From NCBI RefSeq assembly GCF_017349355.1, contig NZ_JAFMPM010000005.1, positions 310,001 to 374,000 of the forward strand: a DNA stretch of 64,000 nt, in the 5' to 3' direction. The stretch comes from Thiothrix fructosivorans. Lineage in GTDB: Bacteria; Pseudomonadota; Gammaproteobacteria; Thiotrichales; Thiotrichaceae. Each line of letters opens with the position of its first letter. Within the stretch, counting starts at the first letter, position 1. The position numbers were made by a program, and so were the translations under genes. Below are positions 19,217-54,400 of this stretch, piece after piece. A model generated the notes under the pieces. That model was not told the DNA's origin and did not search any database. It saw nothing but the letters and a program-made list of their open reading frames with translations.

Positions 19217-19921
19217 TTAATACACCTGAAACAACTGCCGATGATGGTTAGTTTGAGCGCAAATTCGGCAATATTGCCGTGCCGGATTGCCATCAGCCGG
19301 ATAGTGAAAACGGCTGCCACATGCCTTACAACGCGCCTGCACCAAAGGAATTGCCTCGCCGCTTGTCGCCTGCTCCATCGGCCTAACCTCAACCGCATCC
19401 CGCTCACACACATCCACACAAATCCCACATCCCGTGCAACGTTCTGCCTGAATCTGGTAAGCAAGGGCTTGCCCATCATCGCGCTTCTCCAATTGCAACG
19501 CCTGATGTGGGCAAAGCTGCACACACGCATCACAGCCATTACACTTTGCCACGCTAAACGTCGGTACGAAGGGAATTAACGGCAAAGCCACGGGTAGCGC
19601 CATGCTTTGCTCGGCGGAAAACGTCAGTGCTTTGCGCAAAAACTGACGGCGATTGATCACGGGCGTGACCTCCACCACCGGGCTATGCCCCACTAACGCC
19701 GACTCAGTACAAGCCACGACACACAAGCCGCAGCCATCACAACGCGCCGTATCAATTTTCAGGCTGGCATCATCCAGCGACCACGCCTCACGCGGGCAAG
19801 CCTCCACGCAACGTGCACAACTTGCCACTTCGCAAAGGCTGTGGACGCAACGTTCAGCAATCACTTCCGGGATCGTCCATTCCCGCTTTAATTGTTGCAG
19901 CCAACCCGGTGACAAACTCAT
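19217..19921 (-). CDS. NapF-like polyferredoxin
   Basis: 234 residues with four Cys-rich groups of ferredoxin type: CVHSLCEVASCARCVEACP, CDGCGLCVVACTES, CNGCDACVQLCPHQ and CTGCGICVDVCERD, plus a C-terminal CKACGSRFHY...CRIC zinc-ribbon-like pair. An internal RRQFLRKALTFSAEQSM stretch resembles a Tat-like motif, as seen in NapF relatives. NapF-type proteins help load or mature molybdoenzymes or their Fe-S clusters in the cytoplasm. It is the last gene of the molybdoenzyme operon, three bases after the TorD-like gene. Confidence 0.75.
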   Translation of the reverse strand: MSLSPGWLQQLKREWTIPEVIAERCVHSLCEVASCARCVEACPREAWSLDDASLKIDTARCDGCGLCVVACTESALVGHSPVVEVTPVINRRQFLRKALTFSAEQSMALPVALPLIPFVPTFSVAKCNGCDACVQLCPHQALQLEKRDDGQALAYQIQAERCTGCGICVDVCERDAVEVRPMEQATSGEAIPLVQARCKACGSRFHYPADGNPARQYCRICAQTNHHRQLFQVY

Positions 19922-19924
19922 GGC

Positions 19925-20542
19925 TTACCAGCTTGGCGCAACGCCGGGGTAGAATTTCACTGGCTGGGGGTGTGATGCTGTCAGTTGTTGCGCCCGCAAC
20001 TGCGCTTCGATTTCTTCATGGCTCAGGCGTGGTACACCGAGCGTTTCCGCCAGCAAATCACGGGTATGTTCGACATATACCGCCGTTTCCTGCGCCAACT
20101 CGGCATAAAATGCGGTGGCACAGCGTTGCGCCACCCGTTGCGCAAACGGTAACAGCCAGCGCAATAGGTGTTCATCCAGAAAGCGGGCGGCTTCTGCCAA
20201 CAATTGCGGGTTATTCTCCACAGTGGCTTTTTCCAGCAAGAAGGCCACGAACAGCAACTGGTTCACCAGATGGTCATCCGCCATGATTCGCCAGTTGGGG
20301 ACAGCCAAGCCGTGCCGCGCATACCATTCGCGTACCTCGAACATCGGTTGCTGGCACACCAGTTCCTCATCGTCCAGCCACACCGATTCTTGCGGCGAAC
20401 TGTGGAATTTGCCGTGGAGGTAGATGTCGGCGAAGTCGCAAGCGAGATCATCGCGCAGGGTGTCCGAATGAACCTGTTCCCGCGTCAATTCCGTGGCGTG
20501 CAAATCCGCCAGCAACCGTAAGTCATTGGCTATATCCAGCAT
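19925..20542 (-). CDS. TorD/DmsD-family molybdoenzyme chaperone
   Basis: 205 residues, all-helical. The family core is seen as MFEVREWYARHGL followed by ADDHLVNQLLFVAFLLEK and LDEHLLRWLLPFAQRV, the E-x3-Y and D-H-x3-L/E region of TorD proteins. It should bind the Tat signal peptide of the neighbouring DmsA-like enzyme until cofactor insertion. ATG overlaps the stop of the DmsB-like gene by one base (TAATG). Confidence 0.8.
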   Translation of the reverse strand: MLDIANDLRLLADLHATELTREQVHSDTLRDDLACDFADIYLHGKFHSSPQESVWLDDEELVCQQPMFEVREWYARHGLAVPNWRIMADDHLVNQLLFVAFLLEKATVENNPQLLAEAARFLDEHLLRWLLPFAQRVAQRCATAFYAELAQETAVYVEHTRDLLAETLGVPRLSHEEIEAQLRAQQLTASHPQPVKFYPGVAPSW

Positions 20543-21276
20543 TACTTCGGCTCCTTGGGTGGTTCTTTGGGTGCATCCACTGCATCCACCCGCCCATTGC
20601 TATGCGCGATAAACACGATGGAAGGGTTAGTCAATTCCGGGTCTGCCATGCTTTTGACCTGACGTACCAGCTTATCCTTTTCGTGTGGAGCCATTGCCTT
20701 GGTGGGGTAAGTGGCTTCGCGCAGCTTGTCGATGGGACCAATATCGAGCACCCGCATCATGCACGCCATCACGCAATACGGTTTGCGCCCCGCATCAATC
20801 TCATCCACACACATATTGCACTTGGAGACGATGTTCTGTTCGGGGATGAATTGCGGCGCACCATACGGGCAAGCGGCTTCACAGCGGCGGCAGCCAATGC
20901 ACAGGCTGGAATCAATATCGACGATGCCATCTTTTTTGCGCTTGTAAATCGCCCCCGTCGGGCAGGTCGGCAAACACGCGGGTTCGGCGCAATGGTTGCA
21001 CGACATATTGACCTTGTAGGCATACACCGCTGGGTAAGTGCCGCCTTCCACGTACATCACGCGGCGGAAACGTGGCCCCGGTGCTAGACCGTTTTTGTCC
21101 TTACAGGCAATTTCGCAAGCGCGGCAACCAATGCAATCCACATTATTGTGGATGAAACCCAACTGCTGGGTAGGCACAACAGGCGTGTAAACCTCTTTTT
21201 TGTGCCGCACGATGGCTTCCTTGATGGTGGCTTTGTCCTGTAATACGGGATTCTTGGGTACTGGCTCGTTTGCCAT
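20542..21276 (-). CDS. DmsB-like 4Fe-4S electron-transfer subunit
   Basis: 244 residues with four ferredoxin Cys groups in DmsB/NrfC order: CIGCRACEIACKDKN, CNHCAEPACLPTCPTGA, CIGCRRCEAACPYGAPQ and CNMCVDEIDAGRKPYCVMAC, giving four [4Fe-4S] clusters. No signal peptide, so it would be exported in complex with the Tat-dependent catalytic subunit. The Pro/Lys-rich tail (DAPKEPPKEPK) is unusual. No DmsC-type membrane subunit follows, so electrons probably pass to or from the pentaheme cytochrome encoded two genes upstream. Confidence 0.85.
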   Translation of the reverse strand: MANEPVPKNPVLQDKATIKEAIVRHKKEVYTPVVPTQQLGFIHNNVDCIGCRACEIACKDKNGLAPGPRFRRVMYVEGGTYPAVYAYKVNMSCNHCAEPACLPTCPTGAIYKRKKDGIVDIDSSLCIGCRRCEAACPYGAPQFIPEQNIVSKCNMCVDEIDAGRKPYCVMACMMRVLDIGPIDKLREATYPTKAMAPHEKDKLVRQVKSMADPELTNPSIVFIAHSNGRVDAVDAPKEPPKEPK

Positions 21277-21296: not shown

Positions 21297-23857
21297 TTAC
21301 AGGTCACGCCGGAACACATGGCTGCGGGCAGTTGCCAGCCTGTCCCAACCGGGTTTGTGTGCAAGGTCGGTTTTCTGGATACTTGCCAGCACCGTGTTAT
21401 AGGCAAACGAACCAGCGGGGCTGGGTTCGTCCAGCGTCAGCATGTCGGGGTTGCCGGAACGGTCGATACCGTTTTCATCCAGATCCAGCCACGCGCCTTC
21501 GTAGATCACCAGCACGCCGGGCATACAGCGTTCGGTCACATACGCGGGAACCACCACCTTGCCACGATCATTGAACACCTCCACGGTATCGCCCGTCTTG
21601 ATGCCGAGCTTTTTGGCATCGGAAGCGTTGATGGTGACTTCCTGTTCGTAGGTTTCGCGCAGCCAGCCGATATTGTTGAAAATCGAATGGGTACGGTGGC
21701 GCGGGTGCGGCGAAATTAAATGGAACGGGTGTTTGGCGGTCTTTTCCTTGTCGCCCAAGTATTCAAACGGCTCAATCCATTTGGGGATGGCAGGAATTTC
21801 ATAGCCGTAAGCCGTTTTTGTCCAGTCATCGTATTGTGCCAACTGTCCCGAAAAGATTTCGATCTTGCCGGACGCAGTAGGCCACGGCACGCCTTTTTCC
21901 ACGTTATCCTGAAACGCAACGTGGGGGCGATCCAGCTTGAATTTGTAGATGCCGTATTTCTGGAATTCTGCCCACGACATGTCAACGTGTTGGTGTGCCA
22001 TGACTTTGTGTTCCCACCATTCTTGCAGGTAAGCGTTATCCACAGCATCGTTGTATAGGAAGTAATCGCGGTTGGCTTTGGGATTATAACGCTTGCCAAA
22101 CTGATCACCGCCTAGCCGGTAAGCCAGTTCGGTGTAGATTTGCAGGTCGGTTTTACTTTCACCTAGCGGTTCAATCACTTTAGGGCGGTGGATGTAGTAA
22201 TGCCCCTTGTACCACGGCAACGCCACGTCATGGCGTTCAAAATGGGTGGCGATAGGGAACAACACATCCGCATACAAGCCGGACGGGGTAATGGTGGAAT
22301 CATTGCACACCACCAAGTCCAGCTTGTTGATTGCCTGAATTTCTTTATTGATATTGGTGAGCTGGTTAAACCAGTCTGAGCCTTGCCAGAAAATGCCGCG
22401 AATATTGGGAATCACTCCATCACCCGCCTTGCCACCCGGCCATAAGCCGATTTCCTCGCGCTTCACATTCGGGTAGTTCAACACGCAGTGCGCCCAACGA
22501 TCCGATTTGATGGATTCGTAAAACACATTGGCGAATTCATCGTAAGGGTAGGCAACCCCTTCGGCGTGCCATGCCTTGCCGATGCCTTCCGCACAACCAC
22601 CGAGGATGCCGATATTGCCGGTCATGGACTGCAACGCCGCTGCCATGCGGTTGTATTGTTCGCCATAGGCATTGCGCCCCGGCGCCCATGAGGCTTTGAG
22701 CGCGGCGGGTTTGGTGGTGGCGTATAATTGCGCCAGTTTCTTAATATCGTCGGCGGAAACACCGCAGATTTCTGCTGCCCATTCCGGGCTTTTCGGGGTG
22801 TTGTCGTATTTGCCGAGGATGTAATCCTTGAAGTTTTCCTTGTCCTTCGCCCAGTCGGGCATTGTGCCTGCATCCATGCCCTGCACAAATTTGTTGATGA
22901 AGTTCTGGTCTTGCAGGTTGCTGGTAAAAATGTGGTGCGCCATCCCTGCCATCATTGCCGCATCGGTATTGGGGCGGATCGGAATCCACCACGCATCATA
23001 CGCAGACGCGGAATCGGTGTATTGCGGGTCAACCAGCACAAACTTGCAGCCGTTCTGCTTCGCCATGCGCATGTAGTAGAAGGTGTTGCCGCCGTGGAAG
23101 GTATACGCCGGATTCCAGCCCCACATAATGATCAGTTTGGAATGCGCAAACGTGTCATCTTCGTTGCCATCCTCAATCGTACCGAAGGTGGTTTGGAGCT
23201 GAATTTCGTTCCCTCATACGACGGCACTGACCATGAACTGGTGCGGCAGCCGTACATACCTAAGAAACGTGCCTGCAAACCTTCGATCTGGTCGGATTTG
23301 TGCAGCACGCCATAAGATGCACCAGCATAAGCCTGATCGAGCAGGGCGGTGGGACCGTATTTGCTTTTCAGCTCCTCCATCTTGCCAGCGACGTGATCAA
23401 GTGCTGCATCCCATGAAGCGCGTTTGAATTTGCCTTCGCCACGCTTGCCAGTGCTGATCATGGGGTAGAGCAGGCGTTCCTGCGAATACAGGCGCGAACG
23501 GTAGGAACGTCCGCGTAAACAGGCACGCATTTGCGGTTCTTCAAAGGTATCTTTGCCGAATTCGCCGCCTTTCTGGTAACGCCCATCGTCGGTGGAAAGG
23601 CGCACGATTACGTCGCCTTTTTTATGTGCCACCAGCATGTGGCGCGACCCGCAATTGTGGGCGCAACTGGTGACGACTGTGGTCAGGTCGTTGTCGCGTG
23701 GGTAAGGTTCATACGCAAACGCCTTGGCTTCCTTGGGTTTGAGCGTCAGCCCACCCGCTGCAATGGCGGCAGAACCGACTGCGGTGGTTTTGAGGAAGCT
23801 GCGCCGATCCATCTTCAGGGCGGATTTCAGCTTGTCTTGCCAGCTTGGTTCACTCAT
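21297..23857 (-). pseudogene. DmsA-like molybdopterin oxidoreductase, interrupted by one frameshift
   Basis: Catalytic subunit of the DMSO reductase family, about 853 residues if restored. The N-terminal part (start 23857) has a Tat signal DRRSFLKTTAVGSAAIAAGG, the Fe-S site with C65, C69, H73 and C113, and RACLRGRSYRSRLY as in DmsA. Its frame stops at 23132. The second frame carries KLIIMWGWNPAYTF, VDPQYTDSASAYDAWWIPIRP and the C-terminal guanylate-binding domain (NASDAKKLGIKTGDTVEVF). Both frames match DmsA end to end, so one missing base between about 23192 and 23213 explains the break. Substrate unknown. Start overlaps the cytochrome stop (ATGA). It may be a sequencing error rather than a dead gene. 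Confidence 0.85.
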
Positions 23858-24765
23858 GGCTTGCTCCCTTCAATCAAGAAACGTAGGTCGGATTCGGTGG
23901 GGCGGTCTTTCGCCCATTCAGGGACGGTTGCGCCTGCTCCCGGCCAAGCGTGGCGGGGGTAGGGGAAACTGGTGCGATACCATGCGCGTCCGCCGTGGCA
24001 GCCGTAGCAAGAATCGCTGTTGGCAACACCTTCTTGTTCAATCCCTGCGGCATTGAGGAAATTGACCTTGTGGCGGGTGGTGCGGATCGCTGCATGGCAG
24101 AGTAAACAGTTGTTCTGGAAGCCGACACCGCTTTCATGCCAAGGCCCTGGCAAGCCCATGTTCTGGTAGGGAAATTGCCCGTGGCACATCAAACAGGTAT
24201 TCGGGTCAACCATTTTGCGCATGGTTAAATCGGTTGGGCTGTCAGCCGCCGTGCCGGACACTTCGTCGCGGGGGTTATTACCCTGATGGCAGGTGGTGCA
24301 GCTCATATTGGCAACTTTTTTGATGAAAGGCGCAGTCAGGTGACGTTGGTGGAAGGTCATTTGCTCGCCGTCGTAGGTATCGAGGGTTTGATACCACGCG
24401 AGGGTGCTGACCTTTTTTAAACCTGCGGGGGAAGCGTCACGGGTGTTGGTATCCAACACTTCCTGATGGCATTTCAGGCAGTCGGCATCCGTGGCTTTGT
24501 CGATGGCAGGTTTGAAATGGATGGGGTCGTAGCGGGCGCTTTGGTAATCGCTGGTAATTGGGGGCGCGGCGGCTACTGTGGGTGTCGCGGGTGCTTCTGG
24601 TTGCGGTGCTGCTGTTGTTGTTTTTGTAGTGGTTGTAGTGGCGGTGCTGGGTTCAGCGGCGGGTGCGCTATTGGAGTTTGACATGAAATGTACGCTGAAC
24701 CCTCCCACAACCGCAATGACAAGAGCGAGTACGCCGACCCACCATTTATCCGTACCTGCATTCAT
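23854..24765 (-). CDS. Membrane-anchored pentaheme cytochrome c
   Basis: 303 residues. One N-terminal membrane segment (WWVGVLALVIAVVGGFSVHF, residues 8-27) anchors it in the inner membrane, followed by a Thr/Pro/Ala-rich linker to about residue 72. Five CxxCH haem sites follow: C96, C156, C191, C220 and C253. Extra His (for example in MTFHQRHL) could be distal ligands. AAGGAG lies eight bases before the ATG. It precedes the DmsA-like gene with overlapping stop and start, so it is the likely electron partner of that enzyme, replacing the missing DmsC. It fits no NapC/NirT signature I know. Confidence 0.85.
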   Translation of the reverse strand: MNAGTDKWWVGVLALVIAVVGGFSVHFMSNSNSAPAAEPSTATTTTTKTTTAAPQPEAPATPTVAAAPPITSDYQSARYDPIHFKPAIDKATDADCLKCHQEVLDTNTRDASPAGLKKVSTLAWYQTLDTYDGEQMTFHQRHLTAPFIKKVANMSCTTCHQGNNPRDEVSGTAADSPTDLTMRKMVDPNTCLMCHGQFPYQNMGLPGPWHESGVGFQNNCLLCHAAIRTTRHKVNFLNAAGIEQEGVANSDSCYGCHGGRAWYRTSFPYPRHAWPGAGATVPEWAKDRPTESDLRFLIEGSKP

Positions 24766-24831: not shown

Positions 24832-25847
24832 TTATTTAGCTGGTGGTGTCCACGTTTGACCTTGCATCCCAGACATGCCGTTCATACCGCCCATGCCGGA
24901 CATTCCGTTCATGCCACTCATACCATCCATGCCTTGCATCCCAGACATGCCGTTCATACCTGACATGCCGTTCATCCCAGACATGCCATTCATGCCGCCC
25001 ATGCCGTTCATACCTGACATGCCATTCATGCCGCCCATGCCGGACATGCCATTCATGCCGCCCATGCCGGACATGCCGTTCATCCCAGACATGCCATTCA
25101 TGCCGCCCATTCCGTTCATCCCTGACATCCCACTTTGGGCATCAGCCCATTCAACACAGACCATTGCTGGGTTGCCGCTCATTCCCGACATACCATTCAT
25201 GCCGGACATTCCGTTCATGCCGGACATTCCGTTCATCCCACCCATGCCGTTCATCCCAGACATGCCATTCATGCCTTGCATCCCACCCATACCGGACATG
25301 CCGTTCATCCCAGACATGCCATTCATGCCTTGCATCCCACCCATGCCGGACATGCCGTTCATACCTGACATGCCATCCATGCCGGACATTCCGTTCATCC
25401 CCGACATGCCATTCATGCCATTCATGCCAGACATTCCGTTCATACCTGACATGCCACCCATACCGGACATTCCGTTCATCCCCGACATGCCTGTTTGAAC
25501 AGGAACCCATTTGGTACAAACTTTGTTACCAGACATCCCCGACATGCCGCCCATGCCGGACATTCCGTTCATCCCAGACATGCCGTTCATACCGCCCATG
25601 CCGGACATTCCGTTCATCCCCGACATGCCATCCATGCCTTGCATCCCATTCATGCCACCCATGCCAGACATCCCGTTCATGCCTTGCATGCCACCCATGC
25701 CGTTCATGCCTTGCATCCCACCCATGCCAGACATCCCGTTCATGCCTGACATGCCGCCCATGCCTTGTTGTTGTTCAGCAAACACTACGGGGAAAGCAGC
25801 ATCGCACCGACCAACATAGCCAAGGTTTTTTTAACAAACTGTTTCAT
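24832..25847 (-). pseudogene. Exported methionine-glycine repeat protein, frame broken inside signal peptide
   Basis: From GTG 25785 down to 24832 the frame encodes 317 residues built almost wholly from G-M-x triplets (x is S, N, G, Q or D), ending GQTWTPPAK. Just upstream, a second frame opens at ATG 25847 with GGAG seven bases before it and reads MKQFVKKTLAMLVGAMLLSP, then TAG at 25787-25785. Adding one C to the C4 run (25789-25792) joins the two as ...LLSPVVFA-EQQQGM, a complete signal peptide with a V-F-A cleavage site. The intact product would be about 338 residues. Met-rich sequence suggests metal (Cu/Ag) binding or a surface material, but no family is known. Two non-repeat inserts carry Cys. 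Confidence 0.75.
24871..25770 (-). repeat. Tandem 9/18-base repeats coding Gly-Met-x
   Basis: Some 900 bases of degenerate direct repeats; on the plus strand units such as GACATGCCGTTCATCCCA recur with third-base changes. The coded unit is GMSGMN and variants. Variation falls mostly at codon third positions or in the x residue, so the repeat has been kept under coding selection. Such arrays can change copy number by slippage. Confidence 0.9.
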
Positions 25848-25893: not shown

Positions 25894-26178
25894 TTACTTG
25901 TCGGTATGCCAGCCGCGCAGATCGTAAGGCGGAGTCATGCCAGCATGGGTGAAGGGGCTAAACCAATTGCCCTGATTTTCCAGAAAGTGCAGCGAAGCGG
26001 GGTAAGGTTGTGCCACGCCAGTTAACGCGGTTGCGTACCAAGCCGCATCTTTCTGGACCTCAGTAATGGCGGGAGCAGTGGCGGGACGTTCAGCCGGGTT
26101 TGTGCCTGCGATATAGGTAATCTCGCCTGCCTGTGCTGTAGTAGCCAGCAGTGCGAACAGGAAATGGTGCATTCGCAT
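25894..26178 (-). CDS. Small exported protein, first gene of the molybdoenzyme operon
   Basis: 94 residues with a signal peptide (MRMHHFLFALLATTAQA, cut before GEITYIAG). The mature part of about 77 residues has no Cys and ends in an aromatic tail (GNWFSPFTHAGMTPPYDLRGWHTDK in pieces: NWFSPF, PPYDLRGWH). No family is recognised. GGAGAG lies about nine bases before ATG 26178, and the sigma-54 promoter at 26224-26238 sits just upstream, so this gene leads the operon. Confidence 0.65.
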   Translation of the reverse strand: MRMHHFLFALLATTAQAGEITYIAGTNPAERPATAPAITEVQKDAAWYATALTGVAQPYPASLHFLENQGNWFSPFTHAGMTPPYDLRGWHTDK

Positions 26179-26223
26179 GTCGAGTTCTCTCCTCTCTCAT
26201 ATCCTTCATCCACTTGCCATATA

Positions 26224-26238
26224 GCAGGAACTGTGCCA
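26224..26238 (-). promoter_or_regulatory. Sigma-54 (RpoN) promoter of the molybdoenzyme operon
   Basis: On the minus strand the sequence is TGGCACAGTTCCTGC. It matches the TGGCAC-N5-TTGC consensus with GG and GC exactly 12 bases apart, one mismatch in the -12 box. It lies 46 bases upstream of ATG 26178. A sigma-54 activator is encoded next door at 28337, which supports the call. Confidence 0.75.
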
Positions 26239-26327
26239 GATGCTGAAAATAAAACATAACTATTTAATAAATAAAGATTTATTTGTTATTTTCTGGTTGA
26301 TTTTAAATCTTGTAGACCATGAGCTTA

Positions 26328-26391
26328 TGACAAGATGTCATCATGTGAATGACATCTTGTCACGCCAGAAGTTGATCGAGACATTTTGTCA
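26328..26391. promoter_or_regulatory. Three TGACA-N3-TGTCA palindromes, probable enhancer sites
   Basis: TGACAAGATGTCA (26328-26340), TGACATCTTGTCA (26350-26362) and GACATTTTGTCA (26380-26391) share a TGACA-N3-TGTCA core. The first two also form a perfect 14-base inverted repeat with each other. They lie about 90-165 bases upstream of the sigma-54 promoter, the usual place for NtrC-type activator binding, separated from it by an AT-rich stretch. The third is 45 bases upstream of the kinase start, so the activator may also control its own operon. Confidence 0.7.
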
Positions 26392-26435
26392 TAATGTGCG
26401 CTACACTCGTTATTACTAAAATAGGGAGTTATTTC

Positions 26436-28340
26436 GTGCCTATGCCTACGCAACACCTGAGCCGCCGCTTTATCGTCTTCCTGTTTGGGGTATTGGGGCT
26501 GGTGTCGGTGTGTTTTTTGCTGATGTTTTACTATTTCTACAGTGCGCAGATTGCGGATGAGCGTACCCAAGCCTCGCATTCGGTGAGTCTGTTGCTGAAG
26601 TCGTCGCTGGAACGCGCCATGTTGCGCCGCGACTTGCCCGGTTTGCGCGATATTATCAGCGACTTGGGTAAGCAGGAGGGGGTGAAAGAAGTGATGATCC
26701 TCAATCCGGCGGGTGAGGTGCGCTTTGCGTCGCAACCACAACGTTTGGGGCAAACGGAAGCCGCCATCATTCAGCAATTTTGCCCGAACTGCACTCCCGC
26801 GAACCTGCCGCTCGAACCTGTGACCCGTTTCTTTACCCCGAACGCGGGCGGTGAATTACTGCGTACTTTCCACCCGGTCAGGAACAAGCCGGAATGTATG
26901 CAATGCCACGGTAATCCCGCATCCCACCCCGTCAACGGCATTCTGGTGGTGGATTACGATGCTGCGCCGATTCGCGAGAAAGGTTGGGTAAACATCCTGA
27001 TGTTGACCGGTGCAGGAGCGGTTGCAGTGCTGTTTAGCGCGGGCGCGGCATGGTGGTTTATGCGGCGTTATGTGTTGCAACCGATCAGCAGCCTCGATAC
27101 CGCCAGCCATGCCTTGTCGCAAGGCAATCTCGCCGCCCGCGTCCCCGTGCGTGGCAAGGATGAAATGGCTAACCTCGCCAGCACTTTCAACCACATGGCA
27201 GAACGCTTGCAACACAGCCATCAGGTGCTGCAAAGCCGCGAACAGTTCCTGCAAGGTTTGATTGATGCAGTGCCGGACGGAGTGCGGGTGATCGACCCGT
27301 ATTTCCAGATTGTGCTGGCAAACCGTGCTTATGCGGAACAATGTGGTGTTGCCTGCCCGGAAACCTTGCGCCAGCAGTACTGTTATAAGGTCACTTACCA
27401 GCGCGACACGCCTTGCCCGCCATCGTTGCGTAGTTGCCCGCTGGCGATGCTGAGTGCCGAACAACCAACCCTGAAATTCATGGAAACCCTGCATCGGGCG
27501 GATACGTCCTTGTTATCCACCGAAGTCTACGCGGCGCGTTTACCCGTGGTTGCTGGGGAAGCGGTTGCCTCAGAATGTCTGGTGGTGGAATCAGTACGCG
27601 ATCTGGACAAAGCCGTGCAGTATTCGCACGAACAAAAACTTGCCTCGCTGGGTGAACTGGCAGCCGGTGTTGCCCACGAAATCCACAACCCGTTGGCATC
27701 GGTGCGCATTGCGCTGCAAGCCAGCGACCAGATACTGGATACTTCACAGGAAAATGTCACGGAGCTGAAAGATTACCTGCATTTGGTAGACGAACAAGTG
27801 GAGCAATGCCTCAACGTGACCCGCCGTCTGATGAAGCTTGGCACGCTTGCCAGCGGTCATCCCGAATTGGTGGAGGTGAACGGTGTGATTCGCGAAACCC
27901 TGTCGCTGTTGCGTTTCGAGCGTGAACAACAGGGGATTGGCGAAGCGTTGCAACTGGATTCAAGCAATCCGCGCATCCTCGCGGCGGATAACGATGTGCG
28001 TATGATTATCCTGAATTTGGCACAAAATGCCTTCCACGCTATGCCAGCGGGCGGCGAATTGCGTGTCATCACCCGCAAACAGGGTGCTACGGTTGAGATT
28101 CGGGTGGAAGACACTGGCACGGGTATTCCCGACGCGATTTTGGCACATATTTTCGACCCGTTTTTCAGCCGTCGCCATGACCAACGCGGCACAGGGCTGG
28201 GGCTGACCATTACCCGCACGCTGGTCAAACAACATGGCGGGCAAATACAGGTGGCTGAACATGCGGCGGGCAAGACGGCATTTGTGCTGCATTTCCCGGA
28301 TGCGGATGACGTGCCAAACGTGACTCAGGAGGCAGCATGA
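26436..28340 (+). CDS. Sensor histidine kinase with periplasmic haem-c motif
   Basis: 634 residues from GTG 26436, which has GGGAG seven bases upstream. Order: first membrane segment (about residues 8-34), periplasmic domain with C116-x2-C119 and a CMQCH haem motif (C154, C157, H158), second membrane segment (near 178-197), HAMP (RRYVLQPISSLDTASHAL), a Cys-rich PAS domain (EQCGVACPE, RDTPCPPSLRSCPL), HisKA with AAGVAHEIHNPLAS (His414) and HATPase (DTGTGIP, GTGLGLT). It probably senses redox state or a haem ligand outside and phosphorylates the NtrC-type regulator whose gene overlaps its stop by ATGA. Confidence 0.88.
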   Translation: MPMPTQHLSRRFIVFLFGVLGLVSVCFLLMFYYFYSAQIADERTQASHSVSLLLKSSLERAMLRRDLPGLRDIISDLGKQEGVKEVMILNPAGEVRFASQPQRLGQTEAAIIQQFCPNCTPANLPLEPVTRFFTPNAGGELLRTFHPVRNKPECMQCHGNPASHPVNGILVVDYDAAPIREKGWVNILMLTGAGAVAVLFSAGAAWWFMRRYVLQPISSLDTASHALSQGNLAARVPVRGKDEMANLASTFNHMAERLQHSHQVLQSREQFLQGLIDAVPDGVRVIDPYFQIVLANRAYAEQCGVACPETLRQQYCYKVTYQRDTPCPPSLRSCPLAMLSAEQPTLKFMETLHRADTSLLSTEVYAARLPVVAGEAVASECLVVESVRDLDKAVQYSHEQKLASLGELAAGVAHEIHNPLASVRIALQASDQILDTSQENVTELKDYLHLVDEQVEQCLNVTRRLMKLGTLASGHPELVEVNGVIRETLSLLRFEREQQGIGEALQLDSSNPRILAADNDVRMIILNLAQNAFHAMPAGGELRVITRKQGATVEIRVEDTGTGIPDAILAHIFDPFFSRRHDQRGTGLGLTITRTLVKQHGGQIQVAEHAAGKTAFVLHFPDADDVPNVTQEAA

Positions 28341-29695
28341 TTCCCTTGGTATTGGTGATTGACGACGACGTAACCCTAAACCGCCTGATGGTGGGGCAGC
28401 TCAACCGGATGGGGCACGCGGCAACCGGGGTACATTCGTGGGCGGCGGCGCAGGCGTATTTGCAACAGCATGACCCGCATCTGGTGTTGCTGGATTGCCA
28501 GTTACCGGATGCGCGGGGGCGCGATATTTTGCCGCAATTGGTCGGGGATTGCCCGGTGATCATTATTACCGCTTATGGCAGCGTCAAGGAGGCGGTCGGG
28601 GCAATGCAGGCGGGAGCGGCTGAATACTTGCTCAAGCCGGTGAATCTGGACGAGTTGCAACTGATGATCCGCAAAGTGCTGGACGCGCACAGCATGAAAC
28701 AGGAATTTCTCTACCTCAAAGAGCAGGTGCAAAAGCGCAAGTCCTTCATGGTCGGGCAAAGCCCTGCCTTGAAGGAGGTGGAAAACATGATTGGTGCGGT
28801 TGCCCCCAGCATGATGACGGTGCTGATTCAGGGCGAAAGCGGGGTCGGTAAGGAATTGGTTGCTCGCGAAATCCACGAACGCAGCCAAGTCGCCAGCCGC
28901 AGTTTCGTCGCCTTGGATTGCTGCACCATGCAGGAAAACCTGTTTGAGTCGGAACTGTTCGGGCATGAAAAAGGCGCGTTTACCGGTGCTGACCGCCAGA
29001 AAAAAGGGCTGATCGAAAGTGCCGAAGGTGGCACGCTGTTTCTGGATGAAATCGGCGAAATTACCCCCGCCATCCAAGCCAAGTTGTTACGGGTGCTGGA
29101 AACCGGACGCTTCCGGCGGCTGGGTGGTACGCGTGATTTGAGTGCCAATGTGCGGGTAGTTGCCGCCACCAACCGCGATTTACTGGCAATGTCGCAGGAA
29201 GGCACGTTCCGGGCGGATCTGTTTTACCGCCTGAATGCCTTTACCATTTACGTGCCGCCGTTGCGCCAACGCAGTGACGATATTCCGGCATTGGTGAAGC
29301 ATTTCATCAATAACCACGACTTTTCGCGGCGGGTTAACAAGCACTTGAGCGAGGAGGCGTTGGCAAAACTGGTGGTGTACCCTTGGCCGGGGAATATTCG
29401 TGAACTCAAAAACATGGTGGAACGGGCGATTATCCTGTCAGGCGATACGGCGCGGATTTTGCCGGGGCATATTATGTTGAGTGATGGTGTGGTATCCACT
29501 ACTGCTGCGCCCGCCAGCAAGGGTGTGAGTTTGGACTTTGAACAGATACCCACGTTGGACGATCTGGAAAAACATTACCTACACTTGTTGCTGGATAAAT
29601 TCAACGGGCATCGCGGCAAGGTGGCGCGGACGCTGGGGATTAGTGAGCGCAATGTGTACCGCTTGCTGAAAAAGTACGAATTTATGCAAGCCTGA
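28337..29695 (+). CDS. NtrC-family sigma-54-dependent response regulator
   Basis: 452 residues. Receiver domain 1-120 with acidic pocket D9-D11 and phosphorylation Asp53 (LLDCQLPD). AAA+ domain with Walker A GESGVGKE, the sigma-54 contact loop GAFTGA, Walker B GGTLFLDEIGE. C-terminal Fis-type helix-turn-helix RGKVARTLGISERNVYRLL. It should activate the sigma-54 promoter at 26224-26238 through the three palindromes at 26328-26391, in response to the partner kinase. It is co-transcribed with the kinase. Confidence 0.93.
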   Translation: MIPLVLVIDDDVTLNRLMVGQLNRMGHAATGVHSWAAAQAYLQQHDPHLVLLDCQLPDARGRDILPQLVGDCPVIIITAYGSVKEAVGAMQAGAAEYLLKPVNLDELQLMIRKVLDAHSMKQEFLYLKEQVQKRKSFMVGQSPALKEVENMIGAVAPSMMTVLIQGESGVGKELVAREIHERSQVASRSFVALDCCTMQENLFESELFGHEKGAFTGADRQKKGLIESAEGGTLFLDEIGEITPAIQAKLLRVLETGRFRRLGGTRDLSANVRVVAATNRDLLAMSQEGTFRADLFYRLNAFTIYVPPLRQRSDDIPALVKHFINNHDFSRRVNKHLSEEALAKLVVYPWPGNIRELKNMVERAIILSGDTARILPGHIMLSDGVVSTTAAPASKGVSLDFEQIPTLDDLEKHYLHLLLDKFNGHRGKVARTLGISERNVYRLLKKYEFMQA

Positions 29696-45416: not shown

Positions 45417-48400
45417 TTACTGCAAGCCACCCTTAACGATGTAGTTAGCCGCAAACCCCGTATTCAGCGGGTGTAACAGGATATTTCCCACCAACAAACT
45501 CGTGTCATTGCCGGGGCCGGTGAACAGCGTCTTACCATCCATATTCAAGTCGGTCGTGAGATAACCCGACAGAATATGGTTAGTATTACCCTGCACATTA
45601 TCCGCATTGCTAATAACCCCGCTCAACAAGCTGGTCACGTCATTGCCGGGGCCATTAGCCGTCAACGTGTTGCTGCCATTGATGTCACCTGCCCAGAGCA
45701 TCGCCAGTTTGCCTGCTACCAAGCGTGATGCTTCGCCTTTTACCGTGGCGGTGCTGTCAGCAAAGTTAACCAATTTCGCGGTGTTATTCAAACTAACCGG
45801 GCTAGCACTGATCACCCCAAGGTGGTTGCGATGTCGCACACTGATGTAGTAATTGCCTGCTTTGACCTTAGCAAAATGCAGGTTAGCTGAACCCGTTTGC
45901 GCATCCACCAAATCACCATCACGTTGCAATATCACCGCACGGCTAGCGACGATGCTGCTAGGGCTACTACGCAAATCTACCAACGTCCAGTCAACGATTG
46001 CGTTATTGCCAGTGGTTTCTTGCAGCATTGCACTTACGGTTTCTGTGCCTGCATGGTTGAAGGGTGCGCCCGCATAAGGTTGTTTTGTCGGCAACAGACC
46101 CAGCGTGTTCAAATCCGCTGACATGAGTGCGGTGCTGCTATCGTATACGCCTTGCAGCATCGCACGGGCATTGAGCACTACCCCGTCGTCAGCGGTATTG
46201 TTCGTCACCGTTACCGTAAACAGCTTGTTGCCACTTAAACCACCCGCATCCGTTACGGTTACTTCGACTTCATACACATTGTCGCGGTTGGTATCCATCG
46301 GCGCGTCGTAGTCGGGAGCAGCACGGAAGCGCAGGACACCGCTGGCGGCATCCACCGTGAACTGTGCTGCATCTGCACCGCCGTTGATGCGATACGTCAA
46401 GCCTTTGCCTTCTGCTGTACCCACGTCAGGGTCTTGCGCTGCAATATCCACGACATTCGCGGTGGTATCTTCATTGAAGCTCACACTTGCTGCCGATGTA
46501 ATCACAGGTGATTCGTTCGTATCTAACACACGCACACGGATGTCACGCACGTATTTCTTGCCGCTTGCCGTTGTTCCCGTTACTTGGAAGTTGTAGACGT
46601 TATCTTTGCCTGCATCCATCGGCAGCTCATAGTTACCCGCTGGTGGTGTATAACCCGGTGTCACGATTCCACGCGTTTCTGTGGTGGCAGATTTAGTAAC
46701 AACCACATCGCTGGTGATGAATTTGATCTTTGCACAGGGTAGGGTAGCGCCAGCGGCTGGATTTTCCACCGTAAACAAATTGCCATCTGCTCCGCCACTG
46801 ATGACGTAGGTGATTGGTGTCTTGGGCGTCGTGGAATAATCCCACGCTTCCAACAGCTTGATCACTGTGGTTGGATTGGTTTCATCAATCACCATGTCTG
46901 AGCCTGTGCTGCCTGTCGCGATCAGGCTGTCACAGACTTGGGTAGGGATGCCTGCCTGCACACCGGAGAACTCGGAGGTTGCCCCAAAATTGCTTCCTCC
47001 CGTTTTCTTGGTGAGCGTGGTGGAGATGAACGTGCCTTGCAAGAGCGTCATGTTAGCGTTGAGCGTGCCTTTGAAGTTCACGCTACCTTTGCCAAGGTGG
47101 CTAATATCTTTAGCACCGATGAAGATTTCGCCCTCACCATTACCCGCTGGGTCTTTCGTGGTGCTAGCAAAGAATTCCAAACGGTAATCACCGGCTGCCA
47201 CGTCCAAATCAAAGTCATAGGTCACAATCTTCGTGCCATTCGCCCCGAAGGAATTCACTTTCGCTTCAGGAAAATTGAGCAGATCGTTCGGGCCAGCATC
47301 GGCATCACCCGCCAGTTTCGGGTCGGTATGGTGGTCATTCGCGGTGACACCATTATTGCCAAGGTCAATGCCTATGCCTTCATTATTGTAAATGCTGTTA
47401 CCCAGTAAGCTGTTGTCAAGCGATGTATTGCCGACGATGGCAATGCCCGCTCCCACGTTGTTTGCCAGCACATTACCCACGCCGTTGGCTGTGCCACCGA
47501 TCATGTTGTTACTGGCGCTATCCATAAGCAGACCCGCACCCATATTGGAGCGTGCAATCCCCTTAGGATCAGCACCCAAATGGTTAGCTTCCAAAGTGTT
47601 GCCGTTACTGCCATTCAGGTAAATGCCTGCGCCACCAAAGCCATTAATTGCCAGTTTGCGTAAGGTGCTGCCGCCGCCGCTGGCATTCACGGTCAAACCG
47701 TTGACGCCTGCGCCCGCTGTCGTGCCTTTCAGCTCCAGTGTCGGGTTCTTATCAAAACCGGGTTGGGTGGAACTATCCAAGACCAGCGGTGAGGTCAGCG
47801 CGGGCAGGGCGCTTTGTAATGGAATACTCCAATATTTATCTGTTGTATGGTAGTTCGCGCCAGTCGTCGACAACATCAAAATAGCATTTTCTTTACCAGC
47901 GGTGCGCCCTGTTTGTGCCAGCGTGCTGTCGCCGCTCAACAGATTCGCGTTGAGGATAAACTGGCGCAGTGAACCAGCCCCACTGTCGTTGGCATTGGTT
48001 ACGGTGTCAAAGTTGAAGCCGAAACTGACATTGCTCAGGGCGGTGGTATCCAGCGTGATGGTTTGGCTGAAGGTTGTGTCCGCTGCATTGACCGTATTGC
48101 CAACGCCATCAGTACGGTAGGTGATAACCCCACGTTCTGAACCGTTTGCACCGGGGCGAGTAGAACGCACGCTGGTATTCACTACCTGTACGCTGTATGT
48201 ACCGACGGGGACGCTAGGGAAGGTGTAGCTTCCATCAGCCGCTGTCGTGACCGTGGCGAGTAAGGTATTGCCAGTATCGCGCAGCTCGACGGTTGCACCA
48301 CTGATACCTGTCATGCCAGCTATTGCAGCGTCAAAGGCACGCCCATTGCCCCCGCCGTAGTTCACGTCTTCGTAGATTTTACCACCAATATCTCTCAGAA

Positions 48401-51400
48401 CGGCTGCCACAATAGCAGACGAGAATTCAGAGGTATTGTTAGTGGCATCCGTGGCTGTTGACGTGATGTAAGTTCCGGCGGCAACGGCTGGTAAGGAAAC
48501 CGTAAACGTAGCATTGCCGCTGCTATTGGTGGTAACAGTCGTATTACCCAGATAACGTTCACCTTCACCATAACCGGTAGGGTCTGCGCTGGTGTTGGCA
48601 AAGAATTCCAAGGTAAAGGTAGCATTAGCAATGCTGTGCAGTGTGCCGGAAATATCCGTGGTAACACCGCTAAGTTTAGCGTAGTTCAGAACAGGATAGT
48701 TTTGCAGGCCATTGGGGGCATACGCTGAATCACTATCACCTGTATCATTTGGGTTGACGCCATCCAGAACCCAAGGGTCACTGCTCCGCTCAAGATCGAT
48801 CCCAATACCACCGTTGGAATGGATGGCGTTACCACTGATGCGTACATTGCGTCCGGCAGGGCCTGTGTAGAAGAAGCCGATACCTGCGTTGGTATTATGG
48901 GCAATGATATTGCATGTGCCGGTACATGCACCATTGATGGTAACTCCGGCAGTACCACCAATCAAACCGCCGCCATCCGTGTTGTAATACCCAATTCCGA
49001 AGCCATTATTGCCGAGGGTAGTTGTGCCGTCGGCGCCGACACCGATGTAGTTACCTTGTACGGTACCGTTGGTGGATCCACCGCCTGCGAAGTAGATACC
49101 GAATGCACCGTTTCCTGAAATGACATTGCGCGATTCAATAGTTGTACCGCCGATTTTCATGCTATCGCCCTCGGCAGCAATACCGCCTTGCAGATTGGGC
49201 TTTGCTGTTAAGCCATTGGCACTCACGCCCACATAGCTGCACTGTAGGATGTTGTTAGTTTGCAGAGTATTGCTTGATGGGAAATTAATAGGGAAACGCG
49301 ATAACTTAACGCCATAGCGGCTGAAATCATTGATAATCAAACCTTTAATAGTGCTGTTGGATGCATATAAACCAATACCATCTGCATCCGCACCCGCCAA
49401 ACTGCCGTCAATTTCAACCCTTGGTTTTGGGCAGGTTGTGCTGGGTTGGGTAGAGCCATCCAGCACCAATGGTTTGGTGATGCTTGGTAGTGGCGTTGTC
49501 GGCTGAATTGACCAATATTCGTCACCATTGTTGGCAATACTGTCAGGGTTGGTGTATCCCGGTTGCGTGTTCGGGATGTTAAACGTGATGGTGTCGGCTT
49601 CTGGTGTGGCGTTTGCACACTCAATCGCATCACGCAAGGAGCCGGAGTTGTTGGCTGGGGTATCAGTGTCCCCTGTTGTGGTGACAACCAACTTACAGGC
49701 AGTATTGTAAGTGTAAACAGGTGAAAATTCAGATGTACCAACATTGGCCACGGTTGCTGTTGTGGTTAAGAGATCAGCTTCAATCAAACCAGCAGGGGCT
49801 GGAATGATGACACTGAAGGCTTTCATGCCAGTTTGGTTGTTGCCATCCGCATCGGTTGCTAGTGAGCAGTTGGCAGCATCTGTATCCGATGCACTGCCTT
49901 CCACGAAGCTGGCAAGGTAAATTTGACCTTCACCATAGTCCTTGGATTTACCAACTTTGTTGTCGCCCAGTGTGGCCTTACCGCCAGTACTGACATCGGC
50001 TTCAAACAGTTCCACGGTTGAACCAGCGGGAGCACAGCCTTTCACGGTCAGGTTACCGCTAGCAATACTGAGGTCGGCAAGGAGCGGGAAGTTAAGTAGG
50101 TTGTTTGCACCCGTGTCAGCATCGTTGGTGTCGTTGATGGTAACGCCATTGTTGCCGAGATCAATCCCCAGATTGCCGTTGGCATAAATGCTGTTACCGC
50201 TGATGACGATGCCGGAACTGCTGTTGTTTGCCATTTTGATGCCGCCTGTCAGGTTATGGGCAATAATGTTGCCTTGCCCTGCGCCAGTGCCACCAATCTG
50301 ATGCCCGTTGGATGCACCATAGTTCATGATGCCCGGGCCGTTGTTACCAATGGCTTCACCATTGATGCCCACCCCGATACGGTTGCCCTGAATGATGGCG
50401 TTGGCAACACCAGGGCCGCCGCTGGTGAAACCCAGTTGAATACCATCACCCCAGTTACCTGAAATAACGTTATCCAGAATTTTCGTACCAGAACCACCCT
50501 CGGTATCAATACCAATGGTTTCGTTACTCATCGCGGCTGTACCAGCAGGGTTTGTGCCGATGAAGTTGTTTTGAATGGTGCTACCGGATGCTCCCGTGTT
50601 GAAGAAAATCCCAATAAACTTATTGCCCGATATGATGTTACGCTTGGCAGCCGTCGCTCCGCCGATCACAGCGGTTTGTGTGTATTGCAGTTCGATACCG
50701 TTGCTATTGCCATCGGCTGTCCCGTCGGGTTTTACCCCAATGTAGTTGGATTCAATCAGGGTACGTTCGCTATCAACCGTCAGGGCACGGTTGGTATTGA
50801 GATTCCTGAAGCCAGTGATAGCAAAGCCACGGAAGGTGCTGTCCGGTGCATCGTAATTCATCGTGAAGCCTCTGGCATCTAACCCAGCGGTTGGTACGAT
50901 TTGGATACGGGGAACGCCCGGTGTGCCTGCGACATAACCCGGTTGTGTCGTGGCATCAATAATCGCAGGCTGATTAGCTACAGCGGGTAGTTGGCTGCTA
51001 ATGGTGATTTTACAGGTAGCGCCACCGCAAATGTCGGCTCGCCCTAAGGAGTCGCTGGCAGCCGGAATATTGAACAGCAACACTTCCTTGATCACGCTGG
51101 TATCAACCCCGTAGGTGTTGTCCTGCCCGGTTTGTGCCAAGCCAGTGTTTGCCAGCAGGTTGATATTGGTGATCGTTTGGCGCAATGAGCCTTGCCCGCT
51201 GTCATTGGTATTGACGACGGTACTGAAGTTGAAGCCGAAGTTTGCGCCAGTAATGTCACTGCTTGCCATCGTTATCGGCTGTACGGATTGTGCCTGACCC
51301 CCACCGGAAAGGACGAAGGTGGTAGGGTTTAGTGTCTGGTTAGTGGTATTGGCAGCGGCATCAACCAGTGCAGGTTTACGTCCACCGACTTCATTATTGA

Positions 51401-54400
51401 CGGCGGTTGTACCATCGGTGCGGTGCGTTTGAATGGCGCGTTCTGCTGCCGTAGAGCCTGCACGGGCAGAGCGGATGGTGTCATTGACCACCCGCACGTA
51501 GTAATTACCTGCGGCGACATTGTTAAAGCTGTACGGGCCACCGTCAGTCGTGGTGGTGCTGGTGACAAATGCTCCGGTTGAATTATACAGTTCAACGCGC
51601 ACACCTAGGATACCTGCGATACCAGTAGTGCTGATTGTTCGGCCTGCTCCACCACCGTAGTTTTTGTCTTCAAAGACTTTACCAGCAAGAGTGCCGGATG
51701 CTGCACTGGGTTGATAACCAAAATCTAATCCGTGGTTGTTTTGCCCAGCATTACCAGCTGTAAAGCTGATTTCTGCTGTGCCTGCATTATTCACCGCATC
51801 CGAATCGCGAATGTCGGTTTGGGCATTGTTGTCGGTTTTGCTGTCGGTATTCTGGGTGGTTAATGACAAGCCGTTCAGGCTGGTCTGTGCGTTGTTGATT
51901 TTCAGACTACAACTCTCGCCACTACCCATGAAGTTGGCATTACCACCGACTGTATTACTGAAATAGTATTCCCCAATAGCATTGGTGGTGGTGGTGGATG
52001 TATCCGTGCCACAGGTAAGTGCTACTGCTACATTGCTGATGCCTGCTTCGCCTGAATCTTGAATACCGTCTTTATCCGCATCCAGCCACACGCGGTTGCC
52101 CACTTCAATTGGTGCAGGGTTACACAATACTTCCAATTCACCCATGCCGGTACTTTTGCCGAGCGTTGACCACGACACGTGGTAGCTGTTGTCTTTAGCG
52201 CCCGTGCGATTGTTTAACCACACCACGCCATTAGAACCCCAGCTATTTGCATCATAAGCCGATGCCAATACATGCTCCTTACCCGGAGCAAGCGCTAAAC
52301 CACCGGCGGCGATTTCATTCATGCCCTCCCACGCATTATTCGTCGGGCCTAAATCACCCCAATAATATTCGTCCGTGGTTTTGCTGTTGGTGGCAATCGC
52401 GGTGCTACAACCGGGTTCGGAATCACTCAAATAGCCCGTGTCGGTTTTGCACAAGCGCAACACATCGCCCATCGTATCGACATAATCAACTGTTGGGTCA
52501 GCACACGCGGGTTCGTCATACGAATTCGTGCCTTTTTGCAGACCCGCACGGTCAATAATTCCCACAATGATCGAGCCATCGGTATCAAATTCGAGGTTGC
52601 TCAAGATGGGGGAATGGAATTGCGGGCGCACATTGATAGCATCTGCTTGCGGCAACCAGCCTGACCATTCACTAATATTGGTATACCCATAGCCACTGCG
52701 CGGTTGGTTGAGGGCAAAGTCTTTGACGTGAGTAAAACCAGCCGCTGTATTCGCTGGGTTAAAGCGCAACACATAGCCCCGAACCTTACTCAAGTTGTAA
52801 GGGTCGCTGGCAGCATCACACACACCGCCTACATACACATAACCCCGGTGGTATTTCACTGCCCAAGGGCGGAATGTCCCAGAGGCGCAAGTGTAAGGGG
52901 AGGGCAAGTTAATCGCATAGCCACCTAACACATTCGCTGCCGTCGGCGTGGTGCTTGGGGTGACATTAGCAATGCCATAAAGCTTACGGTCATTCAAATT
53001 GACCAGCCACAAACGGTTATTGGGTTCGTCGTAGTCAATGTCACCTACCCCAACCTTACCGACCTTATCCCACGCGGCGACGTCACGCGAAGGCGACCAA
53101 GGGGTACTAGCAAGATTATTACAACTGTCAGCGGCTACCCGCACATCGTTGCCAGTATCAATGCCAATAGCGCGGAGGTCAACGTAAGCTGAAGCACCCG
53201 TATACGCCGTATTAGGGTCAGTCATATCAACTTTGTAAATACCGCCTGTACCTAATGTACCCAAGCCGCTGAAGCGGCGCATAGCAGCCGAAGCATACAA
53301 GGTCTTGGTGGTTTTCTGATAAGCCATTCCCCACAATGCGCCCGTTTGGCTGGTATTTGCCTTGCTGATAGGTACAGGGGTTTGGTGATCAGCGTTACCG
53401 GTAGCATCGTAAGGGAACGTAAACAGGCTCGCATAGTCACCAACGGCGGTAACACTAGGGTTGCCGTTGACGAAGTTGAAAGCTGCCACCGATGGGGTGG
53501 TTTGGCAATATTCGATAGGGTCACTGATCCCCAGATTTGCCGAGCAACTGCCGCTGGCGGTGACAAAACGTACTGTACTCGTGGTGTCTGTACCTGTACT
53601 GGCTGCACCGGGGTAAAGCCCGCTGGGTAAACTGGTGTATTCCAGTCGGTATTGCGTGCCATTCGTTAGCCCGCTCAGCGTATACCAGCCCCGCGCATCG
53701 GTGGTGGCGGTAGCGGCTACCGTATTCGCACTGTTGAAAGCAGTAACTGTAATATTGGCAATGCCTTCTTCCTGAGGTTCACGGATGCCGTTCTGGTTGT
53801 AATCGCGGAAGGCAATCCCACCGAATTGACCCGCACTCGCATTACACGCTAAATCAAACCCAAAGTTCTGGTTAGCCACTGTGCTGCCAGCGGTAACTGC
53901 CACATCAGGTAAAGGATTAAGCGTGCCAATGGCTGCACTGGTAGGTAGGTCAGTATCACGGGTATCTACTTCAATCCGATAACGCGGTGTTGAGCTGATA
54001 TTGGCGAAACTGTAAGTACCGTTCGCGGCAGTATTAGTCGTCGCAATCTGGCTATCATCGTTGGTATTAGCCGTTGTGCCATTATTGTCGTACAACATAA
54101 CGGTGACATTAGCGATACCACTTTCTGTGCCGTTGTCGAGGGTATTATTGCCGTTAGTGTCAGTATAAACCGTGCCAGAAATGCCGCTATTAGGGCAGGC
54201 AGAAGCGATGGCTACCGCCACATCATCAATAATTAGCTCATTGCCTTTGTTATCTGTCGGAAAACCACCAACGGTACACCATGCTCCAGAAATGATGGAG
54301 TTGGGGTCACAATAACCGCTATCTGTACCAATATGCCCATAATTCACAAAGCGAATGGTTGAAGATGCACCTATGGCAGTAAATTCGATACGGTATTTTT

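Follow-up and report, generated by a model that had tools for sequence, protein, structure and literature searches.

A Met-Gly repeat protein encoded with a DmsA-like molybdoenzyme in Thiothrix and relatives: a candidate exported methionine sink

The idea that methionine can act as a reversible sink for oxidants is an old one, and exported Met-rich proteins encoded with a reductase have been described. MrpX, together with yedYZ, has been described as a periplasmic methionine-cycling system (PMC4623255), and BcrX, also Met-rich, shares a transcript with MsrPQ-type genes that have a part in HOCl resistance (PMC8315932). Among molybdoenzymes, DorA of R. sphaeroides reduces protein-bound methionine sulfoxide (MetO) about as efficiently as free MetO; in casein it reduced at most two of six MetO residues and is probably specific for one diastereomer (PMC7402097). 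Loss of dmsA made H. influenzae more resistant to hypochlorite, and the substrate given for the molybdenum enzyme MtsZ is free MetSO (PMC8340005). We regard the pairing of a Met-rich sink with a molybdenum reductase as of an already known kind, and the version described here, in which a GMx repeat protein stands beside a DmsA-like enzyme, as new. In the literature searched, we found no paper that, judged by its title and abstract opening, describes this operon or repeat motif. A term search of the available text of Thiothrix genome papers gave no DMSO/dimethyl-type mention, and the molybdoenzyme passages there concern phsABC.

The Met-Gly repeat gene and its operon

The repeat gene (24832..25847, minus strand) lies in a stretch of 64,000 nt from Thiothrix fructosivorans, the whole of which is called the window below. 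Its leader begins at 25847, and the repeat frame runs from 25785 to 24832. This frame encodes 317 amino acids, of which 92 are Met (29%) and 109 are Gly (34%), bearing out the Met/Gly-rich repeat protein of about 300 residues that an earlier note on this DNA had proposed. It had the highest Met content of 49 window ORFs (picked by script, at least 100 amino acids long and with little overlap), the runner-up reaching 5.5%. The frame contains 91 GMx units, with x being S in 35, N in 31, G in 15, Q in 7 and D in 3. The longest unbroken run comprised 35 units, whereas in 2000 shuffles that kept the composition no run was longer than 5. The composition the note had seen along the whole protein holds for the repeat; it is broken by two short Trp/Cys inserts (KVCTKWVPVQ and AMVCVEWADAQ) and gives way to a C-terminal tail, QTWTPPAK.

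At the nucleotide level, the 91 repeats comprise 22 distinct 9-mers. Positions 1 and 2 of their Gly codons are fixed, while position 3 is C in 51 cases, G in 20, A in 10 and T in 10. This pattern indicates coding constraint on the repeat, in agreement with the earlier reading of third-base changes as coding selection. The gene is not a single open frame over this span. The leader, MKQFVKKTLAMLVGAMLLSP, lies upstream of the repeat in another frame: the frame opened by the ATG at 25847 stops after 20 codons, and the two are split in this assembly by a one-base frameshift near 25790 (25789-25792). In relatives, unbroken copies carry a full signal peptide in frame with the repeat, and the proposal that the protein is exported held up in these homologues.

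The operon comprises, in order, genes for a small exported protein, the Met-Gly repeat protein, a pentaheme cytochrome c, a molybdoenzyme that we call MoA, a 4Fe-4S subunit, a chaperone and a ferredoxin, all on the minus strand. The first gene (25894..26178) encodes 94 amino acids with 26 invariant columns across 13 aligned sequences including that of the window. It had no Pfam or NCBIfam match, and its AlphaFold2 model was poor (mean pLDDT 46). The c-type cytochrome (23854..24765) has five CXXCH motifs and a Cytochrome_C7 match over the cut-off; from its hydrophobic N-terminus, it is probably membrane-anchored. Profile matches and alignment identify MoA (21297..23857) as a predicted TAT-exported, DmsA-like enzyme. 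It is followed by a DmsB-like 4Fe-4S electron-transfer subunit (20542..21276; profile match), a TorD/DmsD-like molybdoenzyme chaperone (19925..20542) and a NapF-like 4Fe-4S ferredoxin (19217..19921), the latter two with profile matches under the curated cut-offs. Diverging from the operon, on the plus strand, are genes for a sensor histidine kinase with a Tll0287-like, CXXCH-bearing region, HAMP and PAS domains (26394..28340) and for a response regulator with a sigma-54 activation domain (28337..29695), both assigned by domain matches. Elsewhere in the window, two giant ORFs (45417-57926 and 58065-63968; 4169 and 1967 amino acids) with SdrD_B, GEVED and cadherin-type domains appear adhesin-like.

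The MoA gene of the window is also interrupted, a one-base frameshift near 23193 (23192-23194) splitting it into 241 and 609 amino acids; most relatives have an unbroken MoA of about 853 amino acids, and in one close relative (G012) the gene is broken too, at a different position. Judged by length only, the remaining window genes for which the compared loci have a counterpart seem complete, so the two frameshifts, in the repeat leader and in MoA, may reflect either decay or assembly error.

A predicted sigma-54-type promoter element, TGGCA-N7-TGC (26223..26238, minus strand), was present in all 14 upstream regions examined. For 13 of these regions, 51-83 bases separate it from the first gene called; for the other (L023), where no small gene was called, it lies 416 bases from the repeat gene. 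The element was seen by aligning 10 regions and then found with a looser expression over all 14, a strict one having missed most; the loose pattern occurs 25 times on both strands of the 64-kb window. About 100 bases farther upstream, the inverted repeat ATGACA-N3-TGTCAT (26327..26341) is a candidate site for the sigma-54 activator. It occurs once in the window, exactly in eight of the 14 upstream regions and with one change in two more; it was not found upstream in L031, L037, L078 and L079.

The MoA clade and its association with the repeat

The best PDB matches of MoA were DMSO and TMAO reductases, and on NCBIfam it scored 604 bits against TIGR02166 (dmsA_ynfE) and 414 bits against bisC_fam. 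Three clade members reached 604, 587 and 632 bits on TIGR02166, all under its cut-off of 777.7, and were likewise under the curated cut-off of every NCBIfam model among the matches listed. Across 26 aligned members, identity to the G010 copy, itself one of the 26, was 71-98%, compared with 34-39% between the clade and E. coli DmsA and YnfE, and 34% between the G010 copy and YnfF. A Ser that is invariant in all 26 sequences aligns with the Ser of DmsA, YnfE and YnfF and with the Mo-ligand Ser of Rhodobacter DMSO reductase. In the N-terminal 4Fe-4S motif (CAHNCGSRH), His replaces the third Cys in 26 of 26 sequences and is a signature of the clade. We set aside the reading of MoA as the thiosulfate reductase PhsA reported in Thiothrix: it scored 205 bits on the PhsA model NF012032 (cut-off 694), while 12 of 16 Thiothrix genomes have another gene that scored far higher (506-526 bits), also under the cut-off.

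Using a threshold of our own choosing (E 1e-200), we found MoA in 10 of 16 genomes of the genus and 16 of 369 of the class. Searches of the family and of a phylum sample found it in 17 of 63 and 5 of 398 genomes, respectively. All 10 MoA-positive Thiothrix genomes had repeat matches of 73-100% identity, compared with best matches of 32-43% in the six MoA-negative ones. An additional 29-residue repeat match was present in G011 (Thiothrix; 69% identity, E 4.5e-4). Where weak matches outside G011 were inspected for Met content, no ORF of L014-L020 passed the Met-rich filter, and the listed ORFs of L088-L090 contained 0-4% Met. In the class, repeat matches of at least 55% identity, a line set after the table was seen, occurred in 15 of 16 MoA-positive genomes vs 2 of 353 MoA-negative ones. 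These 15 genomes span 10 families, and the only MoA-positive genome without such a match was G157. The two with a repeat match alone were G307 (98% complete) and G272 (55% complete); searching these separately for MoA gave nothing. Fisher values for the co-occurrence take no account of shared ancestry.

A similar picture emerged at the level of loci. With MoA as the query, we obtained 36 distinct loci, 35 of them informative; L086, cut too short (57 bases), was set aside from the count, identical L043 and L084 were counted once, and L054, being the G014 contig, was not counted a second time. At 32 of the 35, the repeat gene was directly upstream of the cytochrome gene or the contig ended inside it, so that the multiheme cytochrome anticipated as a neighbour is indeed part of a conserved operon; the gene was absent at three (L080, L083 and L120). 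A locus counted as Met-rich upstream if at least 20% Met over 60 amino acids was found on the same strand no more than 1.8 kb upstream of the cytochrome; L118 and five loci whose contigs are cut inside the repeat gene (L077, L082, L116, L117 and L119) were judged by eye. Because many contigs end inside this gene, draft assemblies tend to hide it.

Searching with the repeat returned 18 loci, eight of them with MoA. Six of the eight were new places for MoA, namely Marinosulfonomonas (L039), Rhodobacteraceae (L047 and L049), Gammaproteobacteria (L041 and L048) and a Bathyaustriella symbiont (L053), and raised the count to 38 of 41 informative loci; the others were a Ruthturnera contig (identical to G260) and Thiothrix UBA5583 (the G014 contig). 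For four of the 18 (L040, L045, L046 and L051), the sequence stops within the repeat or beside it, and in the fetched stretch of a further six (L038, L042, L044, L050, L052 and L055) MoA was not seen. One of the latter, from the Firmicute Clostridium uliginosum, has a repeat-related stretch (L038:10001-10360) with no MoA in its ORF list. The MoA clade ranges over Thiothrix and relatives, other Gammaproteobacteria, Rhodobacteraceae and symbiont genomes. A non-functional repeat expansion, which the earlier note would have accepted had homologues lacked a signal peptide or conserved context, is ruled out by the conserved operon, the signal peptides of the homologues and the coding constraint.

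Of 31 loci, 29 gave a row in our comparison of repeat variation (all but L115 and L118; fragments at contig ends were counted). Met made up 25-35% and Gly 31-46% of the repeat region, whereas the loci differed in their inserts, in how many units they had and in the third residue of the unit (mainly S, N, G, Q, D, R or Y). Complete operon copies of relatives had 38 to 138 GMx units. In Thiothrix the inserts were WVWVP, CTKWVP and variants of this kind; Rhodobacteraceae and some others had CTQW, and other Gammaproteobacteria had YFKITPQGQIFFYP. A W-x-P-P ending was found in 16 of the 29 loci, across different families. The steady Met share, set against changing third residues, inserts and lengths, suggests that selection favours many exposed Met residues on a Gly-rich chain rather than the exact sequence. 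One operon copy (L076:5652-7136, G145) has an insert of about 75 residues between its Met-Gly blocks.

Additional Met-Gly genes away from MoA were found in L021, L030, L035, L154 and L158. In Thiothrix G008, the gene for a lipoprotein fusing Met-Gly repeats to a cytochrome c domain (L021:8480-9124) is flanked by those for a second Met-Gly protein and for an exported FAD (berberine-bridge-like) oxidase; oxidases of this type can make H2O2. In G030 (L026:8818-11484), a Met-Gly gene starts next to a divergently oriented gene that encodes an exported flavin amine oxidase; this contig ends inside the repeat, as do other G030 contigs in such repeats (L036 and L115). A Thiomargarita MAG encodes a tandem pair of exported proteins whose heads are GM-rich and whose tails are Ala-rich and coiled-coil-like (L042:9018-10876), on a contig that also belongs to G211, whose MoA operon is on another contig (L082). 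In a Sedimenticola MAG, a GMSGMQ block is embedded in an exported Gly/Pro-rich protein (L044:9257-10360).

A proposed methionine sink and its alternatives

Chemically, the side chain of methionine sulfoxide is a tethered DMSO. The presence of a DMSO-reductase-type enzyme beside a protein with about 90 thioethers suggests that the oxidised thioethers of the repeat protein could be the substrate of MoA. We therefore tentatively favour, as a reading that may well be correct, an exported and largely unstructured methionine sink whose sulfoxides the linked MoA would reduce. We infer that, in vivo, Met residues of the repeat would react with periplasmic oxidants (peroxide, hypohalous acids and other reactive species) to give sulfoxides, and that MoA would reduce these back to Met with electrons passed from the quinone pool via the pentaheme cytochrome and the 4Fe-4S subunit. 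The sensor kinase, with its heme-binding motif, would sense the signal and, with the sigma-54 regulator, switch the operon on. The parts of this proposal that can be read from the sequences are the repeat, the export signals of relatives, the operon, the co-occurrence, the conserved Ser and the sigma-54-type promoter.

Of the roles listed in the earlier note, protection against oxidation is the best supported, owing to the linked DMSO-reductase-type enzyme and to the reduction of protein-bound MetO by a related DMSO reductase. The fusion of a Met-Gly lipoprotein to cytochrome c in L021 also counts for a sink. Counting against it are the three MoA loci without the repeat, the two class genomes with the repeat and without MoA, the six repeat loci whose fetched stretch shows no MoA, the additional Met-Gly genes away from MoA, and the frameshifts in both window genes. 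Given the limit seen with DorA in casein and its probable diastereomer specificity, one enzyme might recharge only part of the Met pool. In view of the H. influenzae dmsA and MtsZ data, the sulfoxide cycle is the most likely reading and not a result; MoA, which scores under the curated cut-off of every NCBIfam model listed, may reduce something other than repeat sulfoxides.

The last point underlies the strongest alternative, a rather unlikely one, in which the Met-Gly protein is a passive shield. MoA would then respire another substrate, such as DMSO, another S- or N-oxide or an oxyanion, and the repeat would guard the exported complex against reactive by-products, its sulfoxides being repaired by another Msr or never. 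Perchlorate reducers offer a parallel, pairing MrpX with an oxyanion reductase in a pathway that likely makes hypochlorite (PMC4623255). The resemblance of MoA to DMSO and selenate reductases, as well as the genomes with a repeat and no MoA, would fit. However, no Msr match was among the matches listed for the scanned operon genes, and the pairing of the repeat with a single enzyme clade suggests more than general shielding.

The methionine sink could also be given a respiratory role, which we regard as unlikely: the protein-bound Met/sulfoxide pool would be a rechargeable electron sink for filaments at oxygen-sulfide interfaces. The repeat would be oxidised while oxidants are present, and once oxygen is gone, about 100 tethered sulfoxides per molecule would be respired through the dedicated molybdoenzyme and pentaheme cytochrome.

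An improbable alternative is structural, akin to the flexible or silk-like material raised in the earlier note. A flexible or polyglycine-II-like chain would tether the cytochrome to the reductase or keep both at the cell surface, its Met residues serving packing rather than redox chemistry. The only match in a Pfam scan of the window repeat was indeed Collagen (105.8 bits, cut-off 27.2), due to the strict recurrence of Gly at each third residue, and the Trp inserts and W-x-P-P ends that recur in different families could be docking sites. Yet only 4 of the 317 residues are Pro, AlphaFold2 gave no confident fold for a single chain of the G010 repeat protein (mean pLDDT 41), and a scaffold has no obvious need for Met at each third residue in all these lineages. 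A collagen-like adhesin was considered separately and rejected: NCBIfam SclB and Lcl matches were far under the cut-off (140 of 325 and 121 of 500 bits), and the weak best matches in MoA-negative Thiothrix were not Met-rich where inspected.

Met-rich exported proteins can bind Cu(I), and the MxxM spacing of the repeat would permit this; it is nevertheless very doubtful that the protein binds Cu(I), Ag(I) or some other soft metal in order to store, detoxify or deliver it. Near a repeat fragment at the end of a contig (L036) are a HlyD/CusB-type membrane-fusion gene and a 1035-aa ORF for a putative RND pump. Among the matches listed, though, the scanned operon genes included no recognisable copper ATPase, multicopper oxidase or copper sensor, nor did ten neighbours of other repeat copies, and the Cu(I)/Ag(I) binding raised in the earlier note thus found no support from the operon genes scanned. 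Like copper binding, a role as a Gly/Met-rich coat on periplasmic elemental sulfur or selenium fits the context less well, and we consider it highly improbable: Thiothrix, Thiomargarita and Sedimenticola, which carry the repeat, are sulfur oxidisers and YnfE-type enzymes are annotated as putative selenate reductases, but 6 of 16 Thiothrix genomes lack the repeat although sulfur deposition is a trait of the genus, and the repeat occurs with the same operon in Rhodobacteraceae. The extreme hydrophobicity of sulfur globule envelope proteins (PMC10386293) also counts for this role.

Under the methionine-sink reading, an uncharacterised enzyme clade gains a concrete candidate substrate encoded next door, and the tie between a protein of about 30% Met and one reductase clade makes the antioxidant-sink idea directly testable. 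If true, respiratory electrons would repair protein Met outside the cytoplasm by a route unrelated to MsrPQ.

Relation to described systems

The operon most resembles MrpX-YedYZ of Azospira suillum and BcrXQP of Brucella. As in the published accounts of these systems, an exported Met-rich protein is encoded with a periplasmic reductase that is, or here would be, wired to the respiratory chain, under dedicated regulation. The components differ: the repeat is MXKDX in MrpX and BcrX and GMx here, the enzyme is MsrP/MsrQ there and a DMSO-reductase family member with 4Fe-4S and pentaheme partners here, and an ECF sigma/anti-sigma pair is replaced by a two-component system with sigma-54.

With DmsABC and YnfEFGH of E. 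coli, the MoA operon shares the enzyme family, the TAT signal, a 4Fe-4S B subunit, a DmsD/TorD-type chaperone and the aligned Ser. Whereas DmsABC includes DmsC, we found no DmsC-type gene in the operon, which has the pentaheme cytochrome instead, and of the four Cys that serve the N-terminal 4Fe-4S cluster in DmsA and YnfE, the third is His in the MoA clade. Collagen-like bacterial proteins and the Met-Gly protein both have Gly at each third residue; the former are Pro-rich at X and Y, whereas the latter has almost no Pro, Met at each third residue and no predicted fold. DorA of R. sphaeroides is a periplasmic molybdoenzyme that reduces protein-bound MetO, and the solved structures that match MoA best are DMSO and TMAO reductases. 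The available text on DorA describes no Met-rich protein partner (PMC7402097), whereas MoA has the Met-Gly protein as its neighbour.
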